DNA from: a virus
Virus record (IMG/VR): IMGVR_UViG_3300037502_000305
Coordinates: 1 to 31,139 of that record
Reading direction: 5' to 3' (one strand)
Length of the DNA stretch: 31,139 nt
Part shown: positions 904 to 11,511 of the stretch, piece by piece
Position numbering within the stretch: position 1 is the stretch's first letter
How the letters are laid out: the number at the start of each line of letters is the position of its first letter
Position numbers and translations under genes: made by a program
Notes under the pieces: model-generated
Database searches by the model: none
What the model was told of the DNA's origin: nothing
Seen by the model: only the letters and a program-made list of their open reading frames with translations

Positions 904-1065
904 TTATGGATTGATGATTACATCACCCTGACCTACTAAAGAGCCTATCCCTTGAGCAGGAAGTGACCCATCGCAGCATTTACGTGAGTAGGTGTTATCC
1001 TTGCAGAGACATCCTCTGTTGCCGCCTCTTGGTGAGGCTACGGGTAGCTTTTGTGGTCGTATCAT
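904..1065 (-). CDS. Cysteine-rich small protein in the head module
   Basis: A 53-residue protein whose ATG overlaps the stop of the upstream protease gene (ATGA). It has four cysteines in a compact core, CLCKDNTYSRKCC (residues 19-31), followed by DGSLPAQGIGSL. I recognise this CLCKDxTYSRKCCDG pattern from small proteins beside capsid genes of Bacteroidota phages, but no function is known to me. The clustered cysteines suggest a zinc knuckle or disulfide knot. Its place between protease and scaffold suggests a minor head component. The 39 bp after its stop carry no gene. Confidence 0.72.
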   Translation of the reverse strand: MIRPQKLPVASPRGGNRGCLCKDNTYSRKCCDGSLPAQGIGSLVGQGDVIINP

Positions 1066-1994
1066 AGTTTGCCCAGTTCTTTAAGTTTAGATTCAGACCA
1101 ACGCTTTGCAGCAAGTCCACCCCATAGCAGGTAGCTGATAGTGCCGCAAGCGGTAGTGTCGTTCTCATCGTAGTATTCTTCGGCTCTTGATAAGTACGAG
1201 TACATCCGAGTGATTGTTTCTACGCTCACGGGCTTGCCTTGCGCCAACTGCTGCGCTCTTACTTTACCAACAGGTGTAGCACATTTGTTGCCGTTCTTCT
1301 CATTCAGCACAATCCCACGCTTGGCGTTGTTGCGTACCGCTTGGGGATAGTCAGAGTAGGATTCCAATTCCATACGCTTTCCGCCTTTCTTGCGACCATC
1401 CTTTTTGATGATGGCTACAATCTGCGACAATAGCAGAGCCGCCTCTTGCTCCTCAAGACGCTCCATCTCTTGCTTGGCAAAGTTCATCTTGTCCACGAAG
1501 TAGCCCTCAATGGAGAAGCCCTTGACCTTGCCTGTCTTTACGAAGCCATCCCATATCTCTGGGTTATTGACCTTCATAGAAACCATCCACGTACCAACAG
1601 GCAACTCAAAGCCGTACTTCTTGCTCTTGTCGTGAACTTCATCCTCAATAATCCAAGACTCTACAACCGTGAGGCCGTTGATGCCCACCTCGTGTTCAAG
1701 TGTAGCGTTGTTTTGCTTGGCCTTCTGGAAGAACATCTCACTCGCTTTGCGGATAGTGTCTTGGCTGAAGTACACATAAAATTCATTCTCGCCATCCACT
1801 CGGTAGATGGGTTTGTTGGGAACGAGTGCTGCTCCCATTAGGATGCGCTTCTCGTTATCCTGTGCAGCGAACTCCACACGCTCTGACTTGAGCGCAATAA
1901 AGTCCTCCTCAATGGCTGGATGTTCCACAAGGCTGATGGCATCAATCCCCGTGAGTGCCATCGTTTCATCTAAAATAAGTTCTATCAGTTTCAT
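1062..1994 (-). CDS. XkdF-like head maturation protease with C-terminal extra domain
   Basis: A 310-residue protein. Residues about 45-180 match the XkdF-like (PBSX) family: IYRVDGENEFYVYFSQDTIR, then LEHEVGINGLTVVESWII, GTWMVSMKVNNPEIWDGF and KGFSIEGYFVDKM. This family is regarded as the head maturation protease and is found beside scaffold and capsid genes, as here. A Lys-rich linker (KKDGRKKGGKRME) leads to a second domain of about 100 residues, from ESYSDYPQAVRNNAKRGI through RAQQLAQGKPVSVETITRMY to SKLKELGKL, known to me from other phage head proteins but of unknown role. The first ATG at 1994 shares its last bases with the tape measure stop. The protease role is inference from family; catalytic residues were not assigned. 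Confidence 0.72.
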   Translation of the reverse strand: MKLIELILDETMALTGIDAISLVEHPAIEEDFIALKSERVEFAAQDNEKRILMGAALVPNKPIYRVDGENEFYVYFSQDTIRKASEMFFQKAKQNNATLEHEVGINGLTVVESWIIEDEVHDKSKKYGFELPVGTWMVSMKVNNPEIWDGFVKTGKVKGFSIEGYFVDKMNFAKQEMERLEEQEAALLLSQIVAIIKKDGRKKGGKRMELESYSDYPQAVRNNAKRGIVLNEKNGNKCATPVGKVRAQQLAQGKPVSVETITRMYSYLSRAEEYYDENDTTACGTISYLLWGGLAAKRWSESKLKELGKL

Positions 1995-3610
1995 TATCCG
2001 AATGTTGCGGTTCTTACTCGTCTGCGGTCAAGCTCTGTTCCTGAAATAACCTCGCCACTAACCACATAAGCCTTTATGGGCTTTTGGAATTGTGAGGCAA
2101 GGCTTTCTACCAAGATATTCCCACCGCTGCTTGATACGATGTTAAAGTTCGCAGGTCGTGATGCTGCGCTAAAGTCTGATTGCTGAGGAGTTTCAGAATC
2201 TGCTTTAAATCTTGTTTTTGCTATTGTTGCAATCTGAGCAGTACCTGACGCAGCAATGATTGCTGACTTTGCAAAGGCAACTCCTGATGCAACATCAACA
2301 GGGTTAGAATATGCGCTAACAATACCCGATGCAGTATTTACAATTGCATTAGCAAGTTGTAAGGCTTTGTTTGTTTTAAATGCTTGTTCAGCATCCTTCT
2401 CCTCGTTTGTGGCAAGTGCATAGTACAAATCCGAAAATGCAACAAATGCCTGTTGAGCGAGGTCTAACGACTGAAGGAATGCTTCAAGTTCTAATTGATT
2501 TGATTCTTCGGTATTGCCTTTCTTGAAATCAATATATGCATTATCTAAATCCTGTCTTTGAGATAGCAACTGCTTGTATAGTGCAGTTTCCGTTTTGCCT
2601 TGTCGCTCAAGTTCTGAAATCTGCAAATCAATAGCCTTTCTTCGTAGCTTATAGGCATCCTCATAGTATTTGGCCTCAATTTTAAGACGCTCACGAGCAG
2701 ACAATCTTGTGGCTACATCAACATCGTAAAGGACTGTTTCAGCGTTAGATTTAAAATTATCAAACAACTGACCTGTGCGCTCAAGGCTTACGGCATCAAG
2801 TTCCGTTTGTTGATTTGTAATATCAAGACGCTCTTGCTGAAGACCTAATATGTTTGCTTGATATTCCGACTGCTGACCTAAAACTCGCTCTTGAATATCC
2901 AACAACTCTATTGACTTGGATTGATATGCAAGTTCATTTTCTTGAGTTGGTTGGAGTTTTCTCTTTAGGTCTAAATAATCTAATTGTATTTTAACTTGCT
3001 TTTCTTCGTCAACTATTTGCTGCTTTAGGATGGAGTTCAAGCGATTGTTGGCCTTTTCTCGCTCAGTAAGGTTTTTATTTATGTCATCACGCTTTTGACG
3101 CTCAATCTCTGCATTCTTCTGACCCGCTAATTGAATACGCTGACGTTCTACCTCTGCGGCATTTGCTGCTTTCTCAAGTTCAGTTAGTTTTTCTGATTCG
3201 GTATTTACATCGGCAATTGCTTTGATTAATCCCTTGAATGAAGTAATATCTCCGCTTAATGCCTTAAACACCACTCCAATCAACCCTGTTACTCGGTTGA
3301 GTGAGGTATTTAAAAAATCAACTGCCTGCTGACTTGATAAGAACGCATCACCAATCTTGTCAATAGCAAGCGCACCAATGGCGAGTGTTTTTAATGAACC
3401 CGCAAGATTCTTGATTTTGCCTTCCGATTTAGATACTTCTTTTGTGGCCTTGTCAGCACTTTTGGCGGCCTTTGAGAATGCTTTGGATGAATCGTCACCA
3501 AACTCATTGACCGCTGACGTTAAATCATCAACTTCTTTGTTGGCCTTTTCAACCTCCTGAACAAAGTCAGAACTATCGCCTTCAATTTTTACCGTTTCTA
3601 CTACTGACAT
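1994..3610 (-). CDS. Tail tape measure protein
   Basis: A 538-residue protein, Lys/Glu/Gln-rich and mostly helical. It has coiled-coil stretches at roughly 10-75 and 140-400, a hydrophobic Ala/Ile segment near 425-475 (NAIVNTASGIVSAYSNPVDV) and the C-terminal phrase AYVVSGEVISGTELDRRRVR, a common ending of tape measures in Bacteroidota phages. The protein fills the tail tube and sets its length; at about 0.15 nm per residue it predicts a tail near 80 nm, short for a siphovirus (inference). Its ATG overlaps the previous stop by one base (TAATG). It lies at the end of the tail block, before the head protease. Confidence 0.85.
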   Translation of the reverse strand: MSVVETVKIEGDSSDFVQEVEKANKEVDDLTSAVNEFGDDSSKAFSKAAKSADKATKEVSKSEGKIKNLAGSLKTLAIGALAIDKIGDAFLSSQQAVDFLNTSLNRVTGLIGVVFKALSGDITSFKGLIKAIADVNTESEKLTELEKAANAAEVERQRIQLAGQKNAEIERQKRDDINKNLTEREKANNRLNSILKQQIVDEEKQVKIQLDYLDLKRKLQPTQENELAYQSKSIELLDIQERVLGQQSEYQANILGLQQERLDITNQQTELDAVSLERTGQLFDNFKSNAETVLYDVDVATRLSARERLKIEAKYYEDAYKLRRKAIDLQISELERQGKTETALYKQLLSQRQDLDNAYIDFKKGNTEESNQLELEAFLQSLDLAQQAFVAFSDLYYALATNEEKDAEQAFKTNKALQLANAIVNTASGIVSAYSNPVDVASGVAFAKSAIIAASGTAQIATIAKTRFKADSETPQQSDFSAASRPANFNIVSSSGGNILVESLASQFQKPIKAYVVSGEVISGTELDRRRVRTATFG

Positions 3611-7611: not shown

Positions 7612-8079
7612 TTAGCAAACGCTGATTTCAGTGTTAGCAAGCAACACATCAAACGTAGCAGTCCATCCTGCAAGCAGGTTCTCATAACGCTCGCTGAAAG
7701 GCGTAGCCGTTGCAGTACCATCCAACTGATAAAGGTCGGTGTACAACGTACCTCTGCGTAGTTCCGTGATGACATCGTTGATTACCGCAAGCTGGGTGTT
7801 CAGAATGTCCTGCTCGTTGCTCGTTCCATAGAACGGCTCTGCCTGCGCTCGTGGGTTCTCTTTGGTTTCATCTACCAAGTCCATACATACGAGGCTTACG
7901 TTCATCCGAACGATTTGGCCTTCAAATGTTGCTTGGTTGACAATGATATGGCTAAGCGGAAAGATGGTCTGCTTGTTCAGGTCAATGTCAAAGATGTCAC
8001 CTGTGGTGACCACGTTCACTTGGCTATGCGCTTCAAGGGTGTCCTTGAGCTTGGTCGTGATGTCGTAAAACTGCCTCAT
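7612..8079 (-). CDS. Tail terminator-like protein
   Basis: A 155-residue protein of alternating helix and strand: MRQFYDITTKLKDTLEAHSQ, then VVTTGDIFDIDLNKQTIFPL, SHIIVNQA, MNVSLVCMDLVDETKENPRA and LAGWTATFDVLLANTEISVC at the end. A short alpha/beta protein with this order next to a gp10-like gene fits the tail terminator (gpU-like) fold. Its ATG at 8079 overlaps the stop of the -1 frame of the upstream chaperone gene (ATGA), while the 0-frame stop lies 14 nt away; this bears directly on the frameshift finding. Confidence 0.5.
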   Translation of the reverse strand: MRQFYDITTKLKDTLEAHSQVNVVTTGDIFDIDLNKQTIFPLSHIIVNQATFEGQIVRMNVSLVCMDLVDETKENPRAQAEPFYGTSNEQDILNTQLAVINDVITELRRGTLYTDLYQLDGTATATPFSERYENLLAGWTATFDVLLANTEISVC

Positions 8080-8806
8080 TTTTTTAGTTTTTCTAATTGC
8101 TTTCGCTCAAGGTCATTTCGCTCTTTGTCAAACGTGAGAAGGGTGAGGCATTGGTGAACACCAATTCTTCCCACTTCGTCAAACCTTGTGACATCTCCTT
8201 TAGCAAGATGGTAGAATGAAGAATACCATCCCCACTTCCTTCCGAACTGTGCTTCCCCTGAGTATTCGTTTTCTGCTTCTCCAAATAGTTCATTGTAGCG
8301 ATTAGTAAGTCGCTTCCTAAACGATAAAAAAAAAGTGTTGCGCCTAATACAACATCCATAGGAGCTTGCTTCATTAGGTCGCTATACTTCTCTGCCGATT
8401 CGTATGGCTCAATGCTGTATCGCTTGCCTGCTCGCTCTGTGATCGGTCGGTACAGGATTGCCATCGTGCTATGTAGTTGTTGTTGGTCGGACATATAATT
8501 GTCCAAGTCAACATACTCTCCAAAGGTGATGTCCTCAAGATTTGGTATGAATCCAAACGTAAGGCCACCAATGGTGAACTCTTGTTTGAGTGATGGCTTG
8601 GTAGCAAACATACTATTCAGGCGATGCACGATGTTGCTTAGGCTCTTAAACTTTACATTCGGCAGCTTGCTCAATGGCACATTGCAGAATATCTCCAACA
8701 TCTTATGCGTGAGAAACTCCTCATCGCCATCCAACCGCACAAAGCGCTGGTACTGCTCAAGGGTAATCTCAGAGAGGTCGGTTGGTACTACTACTCTTAG
8801 TTCCAT
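8076..8806 (-). CDS. Tail assembly chaperone, long form by -1 frameshift at T9
   Basis: If ribosomes slip back one base on the T7 heptamer inside T9 (8326-8334; 0-frame codons CTT TTT TTT), residues 1-160 are joined to 83 further residues: LSFRKRLTNRYNELF, then FGRKWGWYSSFYHLAKGDVT, RFDEVGRIGVHQCLTLLTFD and a charged helix ending LEKLKK. The KWGWY...LAKGDV pattern is one I know from C-termini in this gene position in related phages. The frame ends at 8076 in an ATGA overlap with the next gene. A 5-bp inverted repeat (8310-8314 with 8297-8301) lies 12 nt after the slip site and could stimulate it. The product is about 243 residues, parallel to lambda gpG/gpGT. Confidence 0.68.
8093..8806 (-). 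CDS. Tail assembly chaperone, short (0-frame) form
   Basis: A 237-residue protein. Residues 1-157 carry the family pattern: DLSEITLEQYQRFVRLDGDE, LEIFCNVP, TFGFIPNLEDITFGEYVDLD, MAILYRPITERAGKRYSIEP and MDVVLGATLFF. After a run of nine T (8326-8334) the 0 frame continues YRLGSDLLIATMNYLEKQ and, after a loop, GDGILHSTILLKEMSQGLTK. Chaperones of this kind coat the tape measure before the tail tube polymerises. The ATG at 8806 is preferred to the TTG before it; the leader is GGTTATTTTATTG. The gene follows the large terminase after 19 bp. A longer product by -1 frameshift is given separately. Confidence 0.72.
   Translation of the reverse strand: MELRVVVPTDLSEITLEQYQRFVRLDGDEEFLTHKMLEIFCNVPLSKLPNVKFKSLSNIVHRLNSMFATKPSLKQEFTIGGLTFGFIPNLEDITFGEYVDLDNYMSDQQQLHSTMAILYRPITERAGKRYSIEPYESAEKYSDLMKQAPMDVVLGATLFFYRLGSDLLIATMNYLEKQKTNTQGKHSSEGSGDGILHSTILLKEMSQGLTKWEELVFTNASPFSRLTKSEMTLSESN
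8297..8335 (-). promoter_or_regulatory. Candidate programmed -1 frameshift signal
   Basis: C-T9-A on the minus strand (T9 at 8326-8334) read as CTT TTT TTT TAT. After 12 nt, AGCGA (8314-8310) and TCGCT (8301-8297) can pair as a short hairpin with an 8-nt loop. T-runs of this length can also slip during transcription, which would give the same product. Confidence 0.6.
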
Positions 8807-8827
8807 CAATAAAATAACCTTTAGAAT

Positions 8828-9985
8828 TTAACGTATGGCATACCTGCCGTAGTTCGGCTTGGATAGCTTGTTGTATGTTGCGTAGCGCATTGCATCAATG
8901 GCGTGGTTGAATGCATCTATGGGCTTGTTTAAGAGGTTACCGTTCTTGTCCTCTACCCATTTGTAGTTCTGCATCTCTTTGATTAGGTTGTTGCTTCGTG
9001 GGGTAACGAATAGCTTGTGTCGCTTCAGTACGTCAATACCAACTATAACGCTATCTGCTCCCTTCTGCGTGGGTTTTACGTTCCATCCCATACGATGTAG
9101 CTCCTCAATAGATTTGGGTTCAGCAGAGTCCGCAAATACCTCCGTGCGCCTGTCAATGTTTAGGTCTTTTAGCCTGTTGCTGATATCAGGGTTGGTGAGG
9201 CCTGTTTGGTAGATAAGTTCATCGGCATACAGGTTGTCACCCGATTTATACACCGCAACAAGCGAACTCGGGTCGTTCGTGTAACCGAAGTCAAGTCCGT
9301 ATGCGAGCAGGGTCGCATCAGCAGGTATCTCATTCATCCCGAATTGGAAGATAGTAGCACGGCTCATACCACGCTCACCCAAGCCGTAGATACGCCAATA
9401 GTCATCATCCGTTTCCTTCAGGCGTTCAATCTCTGCCTTTACTGCTGAATCAAGGAACGGGTTATCAAGGTAGGTGGTCTGATAGAAGTCGCAGTCATCA
9501 CGGGTAACCACCTTATCATATATCCAATGGAACGCATCCGATGGGTTGTAGTCAAGGATTGCCCTACCTTCGGTACGCAGGATAAGTTGCTGCCAATCCT
9601 CATACGTTAGCTCGTTAGCCTCGTTAATGTACAACAGGTCACGCTTGCGGCCTCGTATCTTTTGCGGTTGGTCAAGGCTGATGAACTCTACGAGGTTGCC
9701 GTTGAGGTAGTATTCGTGGTTTGACTTGTTGTGGTACTCCTCACGGTACAGGTCGTGGCTACGCAGGATATCAAAGAAGTCACGCATCACCGAAGCACGA
9801 AGCGATGGGAATGTCTTACGGCAGATGGTGATGGTCTTGTCCGTATGTTGGTCGGTATAATAGAAAATCACCCAAAGCAGGATGTTGTATGTCTTCCCAC
9901 TCCGAGTACCGCCCTGCTCAACGACTATCTTCTTGTCGCTGCGCTTTAGGTGGTTGAATACCTTATTGGTCTGAATCTTCCCCAA
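8828..9985 (-). CDS. terL: Terminase large subunit
   Basis: A 385-residue packaging motor. The Walker A motif is GGTRSGKT at residues 25-32, a Walker B-like RDLLYINEAN follows near 115-124 with the catalytic Glu, and the coupling region has ILDYNPS. The nuclease half has GLDFGYTNDPSSLVAVYKSG, ADSAEP and the C-terminal DAFNHAIDAMRYA, giving the Asp residues of an RNase H-like nuclease. The size is slightly below the usual 400-450. The frame opens with TTG (9985) after an in-frame TAG, and no ATG occurs before the Walker A, so a TTG start inside the end of terS (23 nt overlap) is the most likely. Confidence 0.93.
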   Translation of the reverse strand: MGKIQTNKVFNHLKRSDKKIVVEQGGTRSGKTYNILLWVIFYYTDQHTDKTITICRKTFPSLRASVMRDFFDILRSHDLYREEYHNKSNHEYYLNGNLVEFISLDQPQKIRGRKRDLLYINEANELTYEDWQQLILRTEGRAILDYNPSDAFHWIYDKVVTRDDCDFYQTTYLDNPFLDSAVKAEIERLKETDDDYWRIYGLGERGMSRATIFQFGMNEIPADATLLAYGLDFGYTNDPSSLVAVYKSGDNLYADELIYQTGLTNPDISNRLKDLNIDRRTEVFADSAEPKSIEELHRMGWNVKPTQKGADSVIVGIDVLKRHKLFVTPRSNNLIKEMQNYKWVEDKNGNLLNKPIDAFNHAIDAMRYATYNKLSKPNYGRYAIR

Positions 9986-10310
9986 GCACCTCTATTTGGA
10001 ACATCTTGCCTGATGCCACCTCTACCTCTTGGCGTTCTATGTACCCACGCTTCTTGCCCTTTGTTTTGAGGAAGAAGATGGTGGCGGTTGAGTTTCCTTC
10101 CTTTATCTGCTTGTGCAGTTGGCTTTCTGCGAAGTCAAGGGCAACGTCTGATAGCCCTTCAACTGCTGCCCGATATTCTGCGTCCTCCTGCATCCAAAGG
10201 TAGTGAGTGGTACGTCCTATGCCTACGGCCTTGCAAGCGGCTGTAACAACGCCTAATGACTTCTCAAGGGCATCAAGCATCGCTCTTTTATGTTGTTCAG
10301 TTTTGTCCAT
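9963..10310 (-). CDS. terS: Terminase small subunit-like DNA-binding protein
   Basis: A 115-residue protein with a helix-turn-helix at residues about 15-45 (LGVVTAACKAVGIGRTTHYL), followed by acidic and helical segments (AVEGLSDVALDFAESQLHKQ, EGNSTATIFFLKTKGKKRGY). This is the phBC6A51/terminase small subunit pattern: DNA recognition plus an oligomerisation helix. It lies directly upstream of terL with 23 nt overlap and starts 14 nt inside the end of the methyltransferase gene. Confidence 0.82.
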   Translation of the reverse strand: MDKTEQHKRAMLDALEKSLGVVTAACKAVGIGRTTHYLWMQEDAEYRAAVEGLSDVALDFAESQLHKQIKEGNSTATIFFLKTKGKKRGYIERQEVEVASGKMFQIEVLGEDSDQ

Positions 10311-11511
10311 ACGGCTTGCCGTTTATTTTGATTTCAAGTGATGGGTCAAGTTTCTGCATTCGGTCTACAATCACTTGGCAGTACTTCGGGTCAAGTTCCA
10401 TACCATAGCACTTGCGGTTGAGTTGGTGTGCTGCTACCATTGTGGTTCCCGTTCCAATGAATTGGTCTAAAACAATATCACCTTGATTTGTGAATTGCAT
10501 TGCCCATTCAGGTAGGTCTATTGGGAATGTTGCTGCGTGGACTGATGAAAATTCATTGTTTCGTTGAGGTTTTCCACGATATATGTTTGGGACATTTCCT
10601 CTAAACTTTGCATTTGGTATTGCCCGTGATGCATTTTCTTTTGATGAAATAAAGAACATATACTCCCAAGCAGAGTTCATAACACTTTCCGCCATTTGAG
10701 GCGCACCGTGACCTTTATCCCATATTGCAACATCAATAAAATTGTTTCGGTATTCGTACAGGTATTCTATAAGCGCAATCTTATTACCTGCCAAACTTTG
10801 AATGTTGCAGATTAGATATTCTGAATTTAAGATGGCGTTATTTGTGAATCCAATCAAAAGGTCAAGATATTCTGATTTGCTTTGATTGTCATTGTACTCG
10901 TTGTATTTGTTGTCGCCCGTATGAGTGTTGCCACTTAAAGCCTCGCTTTTTCCTGCATTGTATGGTGGACTTGTGAAAGCCATCGCTGCACGATTTCCGT
11001 TCATCAATTTTGCAATCGCATCTGAATCCGTAGAGTCCCCACATAGCAGTCGGTGTTGGCCTATCTCTATCAGGTCACCTAATACGATGTCCGTTTGTAT
11101 TTCGCTTGGTGCTTCGTAGTCATCCTCCTCCGCTTCAAGTACAGGCGTATTGTCAAACGGAAGCTCAAGACCCCAATCCTCTAACGCTTCTACATCCCAT
11201 TGGTTGGCGAGTAAGTCCCAATCCCATTCTCCGAAGCCTACGTTGTCTTTGATGATGAACTCCGCCTGTTGCTGCTCGGTCAGGTTATCCGCTACGATGA
11301 TAGGCACTTCTTTGAGTCCTGCTGCAATGCAAGCCTTCAGGCGCATATTGCCCCCAAGCACCACCATATTGCTATCTACTACGATTGGGCGTAGCTCAAG
11401 CATTTCAGGGAACTCTTGGATGGACTTCGTTAGCTTCTTGAACTTGTCATCCTTGATGATTCGTGGGTTGGTCGGATTAGGAATAACCTGCGAGATGGGT
11501 ACTCGTTTCAT
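10297..11511 (-). CDS. ParB-like / DNA methyltransferase fusion (probable N4-cytosine or N6-adenine)
   Basis: A 404-residue two-domain protein. Residues 1-90 are ParB/Srx-like (ISQVIPNPTNPRIIKDD, VVLGGNMRLKACIAAGLKEV), a domain often joined to phage methyltransferases. Residues about 135-395 form a SAM-dependent DNA methyltransferase: GDLIEIGQHRLLCGDS, catalytic TSPPYNAG, and near the C-terminus DQFIGTGTTMVAA (the FxGxG-like SAM site). The order catalytic then SAM motif is the beta class; SPPY in place of DPPY favours N4-cytosine, but N6-adenine is possible. It may protect phage DNA from restriction. It starts with a GTTATTTAATT leader that overlaps the end of the HNH gene. Confidence 0.85.
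   Translation of the reverse strand: MKRVPISQVIPNPTNPRIIKDDKFKKLTKSIQEFPEMLELRPIVVDSNMVVLGGNMRLKACIAAGLKEVPIIVADNLTEQQQAEFIIKDNVGFGEWDWDLLANQWDVEALEDWGLELPFDNTPVLEAEEDDYEAPSEIQTDIVLGDLIEIGQHRLLCGDSTDSDAIAKLMNGNRAAMAFTSPPYNAGKSEALSGNTHTGDNKYNEYNDNQSKSEYLDLLIGFTNNAILNSEYLICNIQSLAGNKIALIEYLYEYRNNFIDVAIWDKGHGAPQMAESVMNSAWEYMFFISSKENASRAIPNAKFRGNVPNIYRGKPQRNNEFSSVHAATFPIDLPEWAMQFTNQGDIVLDQFIGTGTTMVAAHQLNRKCYGMELDPKYCQVIVDRMQKLDPSLEIKINGKPYGQN

Follow-up and report, generated by a model that had tools for sequence, protein, structure and literature searches.

Results

The dual-tail gene and its neighbourhood

The window, a stretch of 31,139 nt of viral DNA, carries on its minus strand a gene with two alternative C-termini (8806–8093), referred to below as the dual-tail gene. 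Its start is the ATG at 8806, and the ORF caller also allows an alternative TTG at 8809. An N-terminal body of 160 codons (8327..8806, minus strand), supported by the ORF reading, a PHROG match, and AlphaFold2, is common to both products, with PHROG 32199 (unknown function) matching residues 4–178 of the 0-frame product (E = 2e-22). The body runs into nine T (8334–8326, minus strand; U9 in the mRNA), read in the 0 frame as cTT TTT TTT Tat. Beyond this slip run the 0 frame stays open for 77 further codons to a TAG at 8095–8093 (0-frame tail, 8093..8326, minus strand), while the -1 frame continues past the slip for 83 open codons and closes at a TGA at 8078–8076 (-1-frame tail, 8076..8327, minus strand), which forms an exact ATGA with the overlapping start codon of the next gene (ATG 8079–8077). 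The initial annotation had described the run and both open frames, and each was confirmed in the sequence, though the distance from the 0-frame stop to the next ATG is 13 nt and not 14 nt. The -1-frame tail, defined by its ORF, its relatives, and AlphaFold2, includes a conserved KWGWY..LA.GD region; the 0-frame tail is defined by its ORF and by the selection tests described below. Shortly after the run, the hexamer TTTAGG (8316..8321, minus strand) encodes Leu-Gly in the 0 frame and Phe-Arg in the -1 frame and supplies a TAG stop (8319–8317) in the +1 frame.

The dual-tail gene sits in the tail block, between the terminase and the tail genes, and apparently not directly 5’ of the tape measure gene. 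The terminase large subunit (8828..9985, minus strand; Pfam Terminase_3, 6e-23) is encoded immediately upstream, and the next gene downstream (7612..8079, minus strand; 155 aa) starts inside the ATGA overlap, and its product resembles a tail completion or terminator type protein. A probable tape measure protein (1994..3610, minus strand; 538 aa), with a weak match to PHROG 1506 (E = 0.0043 and 3.8e-5), lies five genes downstream. It is followed by a head maturation protease-like protein (1062–1994, minus strand), which raises the possibility that the tail genes precede the head genes here. Also on the minus strand, a ParB_N and N6_N4 DNA methylase fusion (10297–11511) adjoins the small terminase gene. 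In several clades a terminator-like G+C hairpin followed by T9 occurs between the terminase and the dual-tail gene, ~525–540 nt upstream of the slip in contigs L457, L461, L465, L467, and others, and may separate transcription units. The other T9 runs at these loci were considered as a second slip site and rejected, as most of them are terminator-like runs in this position.

Relatives and family spread

A protein search of viral contigs recovered 80 close relatives, all of which have T9 where the contig is long enough to show the site, and in which both tails remain open in the same arrangement as in the window. Widening the search with a DNA pattern of the slip region, and with the bodies of distant members as queries, yielded a large and diverse set with both frames open in hundreds of relatives, many from aquatic-looking samples. 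Where complete, the -1 tail is almost always ~74–96 codons long, while the 0 tail varies between 24 and 88 codons. The only cultured relatives in the phage collection are the Nonlabens phages P12024L and P12024S (Inhavirus; 31% identity), which suggest that the family probably infects Bacteroidota; a scan of bacterial genomes for prophage relatives returned none. Both cultured phages have the same T9 and TTTAGG context and retain the -1 tail with its KWGWY/KWSWY motif, and the two ORFs are annotated directly after the terminase as hypothetical proteins, but their 0-frame tail extends for only ~25 codons, compared to 77 in the window.

The length of the T run is conserved and its register is not

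Among 221 unique members, found with a search that asked for TTTAGG and six or more T in a row, the run was at least nine T long in all but one. The sole exception, contig L329 (minus strand, near 279–306), has only T8 and its body, 0 tail, and -1 tail fall in three different frames, which is best read as an indel, either a sequencing error or real. A second set was found from the body protein alone, with neither the T run nor TTTAGG required for inclusion, and here T9 or T10 occurred in 140 of 140 unique sequences and TTTAGG in 136. A separate tally that admitted only runs of nine T was left out of the evidence on run length. Counting from position 0, where the codon that follows the two Phe codons begins, the run in the second set occupies six registers between -11 and +2 and is shifted to -11..-2 in 23 of the 140 sequences, a slide of as much as 3 nt against the sequence that follows. 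Scans aimed at T7 and T8 variants returned members with the run at -7..+1, -7..+2, and -9..-1, besides the common -8..0, again with nine or more T, and recovered no in-frame member with T7 or T8. As the positions beside the run accept many different residues (L, V, I, F, G, S, D, A, and Y before it; Y, W, L, F, and Q after it), protein constraint is not the reason that the shorter runs are missing. Genomes in which a T10 run joins body and -1 tail in one frame were also sought and none were found; members with T10 or T11 stay split, the extra T having arisen by substitution. A stop in the +1 frame is present within three codons in all 140 sequences, mostly the TAG inside TTTAGG, and is kept where TTTAGG is altered.

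From the conservation of run length without conservation of codon register we infer a transcriptional step. The retention of a homopolymer of about nine or more in any register, together with the invariant +1 stop, favors slippage by the polymerase, under which all frames would be made and a third-frame stop would be useful, whereas a ribosomal -1 shift alone would leave that stop without a use. In a large share of bacterial genomes, selection against slippage can first be seen at runs of nine (PMC1088944), and slippage in bacteria on stretches of 9 A/T has been documented (PMC5009743). Based on these patterns, it is somewhat probable that the switch is programmed transcriptional slippage rather than ribosomal slippage. 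Most mRNAs would carry the templated U9 and yield the 0-frame product of 237 aa with its selected 77-residue tail, while RNA polymerase slipping on T9 would produce a minority of mRNAs with one extra U, whose normal translation would give the -1 product, the body joined to a helical tail of 83 residues that finishes where the next gene begins. Translation of U8 or U11 transcripts, which fall in the third frame, would stop within three codons, and these transcripts would be discarded.

Two considerations weigh against polymerase slippage: longer runs might slip better on the ribosome too, and the +1 stop lies in TTTAGG, a hexamer that both coding frames hold in place as well. A -1 ribosomal frameshift of the classical programmed type, at T_TTT_TTT and with the same dual coding, is a less likely alternative. 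T9 in any register includes an in-frame heptamer of the X_XXY_YYZ type (T_TTT_TTT), which is therefore present in every in-frame member. In genes of this kind a ribosomal -1 shift is the rule in lambda, P2, and most long-tailed phages (PMC5009743), and two phage tail chaperone shifts have been measured at 6–7% (PMC3711429). Seven T would suffice for such a shift, yet no in-frame T7 or T8 occurs even though single neutral-looking changes would create them, and the run slides against the sequence downstream. There is also no conserved stimulatory structure. The downstream hairpin proposed in the initial annotation can be drawn in the window sequence but is unsupported as a stimulator: across 45 diverse members the folding energy downstream of the run is no better than in shuffled sequence (mean z 0.15 vs. 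0.16 in the control) and the hairpin is thus not a conserved feature, and upstream of the run there was no folding signal for a conserved RNA structure. The programmed frameshift of that annotation stands as a change of -1, while its ribosomal nature is doubtful since at least nine T are kept in any register. It is possible that transcriptional and ribosomal slippage act together.

Both tails are under selection

Third codon positions of the -1 frame coincide with second codon positions of the 0 frame, and any change at the former is also a change at the latter. Synonymous change along the -1 tail, determined from independent sequence pairs against an amino-acid-corrected expectation, was 0.21 of that expected over codons 1–12 and 0.56, 0.61, 0.51, and 0.37 over the following segments, compared to 1.00 in the body, with the terminase and the next gene resembling the body. 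The window’s own clade gave the same picture when taken alone (0.16, 0.61, 0.54, 0.50, and 0.30). The constraint that the initial annotation had proposed to look for is thus present, at 0.2–0.6 of expectation across the overlap. The cleanest control for selection on the 0 frame is the contrast between members with the 0 frame open and closed at matched codons, and for the -1-tail codons 13–27 before the stop the ratio was 0.44 (0.33–0.59) with the 0 frame open and 0.85 (0.71–1.00) with it closed. Over its final 12 codons (~8079–8114 in the window) the -1 tail is constrained even with the 0 frame closed (0.53), and these codons, being constrained in both groups, were left out as evidence for dual coding; the constraint so near the next gene probably has another cause in the start signals of that gene.

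Stops are suppressed in the 0 frame as well. A null was built by reshuffling the synonymous codons of the -1 tail under each phage’s own usage, keeping the -1 protein intact. Over 81 clusters, the mean open length of the 0 frame was 61 codons compared to 13 in the null, with 324 stops observed in the tail and 536 expected, though the clusters are related to one another and a combined P-value is not to be taken literally. For the window alone, the 0 frame was open this long in 0.6% of the reshuffling trials (P = 0.006). Further, each of the four segments of the tail showed more 0-frame identity than the -1 protein would impose (0.42 vs. 0.19, 0.19 vs. 0.13, 0.375 vs. 0.30, and 0.29 vs. 0.19; 37 clusters below 55% identity). 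Homologues therefore conserve both frames and not just one of the two. An antisense gene was rejected as the source of the constraint, as the antisense frames carry stops, and an internal start for the -1 tail is unlikely, with an ATG within the first 30 codons in only three of 71 members.

Evolutionary evidence, combining reduced synonymous change with a second frame open beyond the null, indicates that both long tails are real and under selection, in support of the -1 change at T9 and the long dual coding first put forward in the initial annotation. That only the -1 tail is functional, with the 0 frame held open by codon bias or an RNA element, is very improbable. The highly variable end of the 0 frame, its early stop in P12024L and P12024S, and the low confidence with which the distal 0 tail is predicted (see below) would fit this explanation, but stops are suppressed against each phage’s own codon usage, the matched open and closed groups differ in synonymous change, 0-frame identity is in excess, no RNA structure is detected, and the antisense frames are not open, such that it is already strongly disfavoured. 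A homopolymer sequencing or assembly error in a true single-frame gene, for which the error-prone nature of long T runs and the out-of-frame body of contig L329 could be cited, is extremely improbable, as hundreds of independent contigs and the cultured P12024L and P12024S carry at least nine T, and both frames are under selection.

Predicted structure and function of the two products

With the family alignment, AlphaFold2 modeled the body with a pLDDT above 90 over most of its length. The last helix of the body (150–184) crosses the slip point (residue 160) into the 0 tail, the proximal part of which is thus predicted to extend that helix, followed by a weaker helix (194–209) and a low-confidence end (distal pLDDT ~50–65). 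Modeled alone, the -1 tail forms a confident helical domain (pLDDT 90). Foldseek searches matched only unnamed phage proteins in BFVD, that of P12024S among them, and returned no match in the PDB, and hhalign comparisons of the family profiles with lambda G and T were likewise negative. As tail chaperone families diverge strongly, the missing homology is weak evidence. Our best guess, and a likely one, is that the two products are a G/GT-like tail chaperone pair, judging from the position in the tail block, the probable tape measure downstream, and a common body with two ends. The tail assembly chaperone named in the initial annotation accordingly stays plausible by position and two-product layout, although neither the sequence nor the fold searches linked it to lambda G or T. 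By analogy with lambda G/GT, the position and layout suggest that the pair may bridge the tape measure and the tail subunit.

Discussion

In the textbook account of tail length control, a chaperone is made as two products, the ribosome sets their ratio, and the short form ends at the slip. For the family described here, we see about an even chance that uncultured phages have replaced the G/GT ribosomal switch with programmed transcriptional slippage at nine or more T in a three-frame design, in which two long selected C-termini are combined with a third-frame stop and RNA polymerase would set the ratio of the two proteins. If true, the ratio of two tail-assembly proteins would be controlled by RNA polymerase and no longer by the ribosome. 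What appears to be new, at the level of sequence, is a family with 24–88 selected dual-coding codons and evidence for polymerase slippage. The maintenance of two different long ends in one DNA stretch over hundreds of phages provides a clear comparative case of long dual coding among DNA phages, and the conservation of run length makes the question of ribosome or polymerase directly and cheaply testable in the cultured Nonlabens phage P12024.

As in lambda G/GT and P2 E/E+E’, a small gene of the tail block appears to encode a short product and a -1 fusion with a second domain, and the -1 ORF closes where the next gene starts; the lambda-type pattern of two products with a common N-terminus and a -1 change is seen here in sequence and selection. 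The short form closes a few codons past the slip in those phages (5 in lambda G and ~6 in P2 E), as the initial annotation had stated for the lambda type, and the shifts annotated by SEA-PHAGES that were used for PRFect training average 26 nt to the 0-frame stop (PMC10885494). In contrast, the slip is not near the end of the first frame here, with 77 codons remaining in the window and 24–88 in the family, the slip sequence differs, the gene is apparently not directly upstream of the tape measure gene, and it is without detectable homology to lambda G or T.

A search of the open-access literature found no phage tail chaperone described as transcriptional slippage. Outside the tail chaperones, polymerase slippage opens an overlapping frame in potyvirus PIPO and paramyxovirus P/V, though these are RNA viruses with viral polymerases. 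Slippage on A9/T9 in Thermus dnaX, Shigella spa13 and mxiE, and IS elements is similar in using about nine A or T in any codon register and, for Thermus dnaX, in having stops nearby in other frames. Those are cellular or IS genes, whereas the window holds a phage gene in which slippage at a comparable run would give access to two long selected tails.
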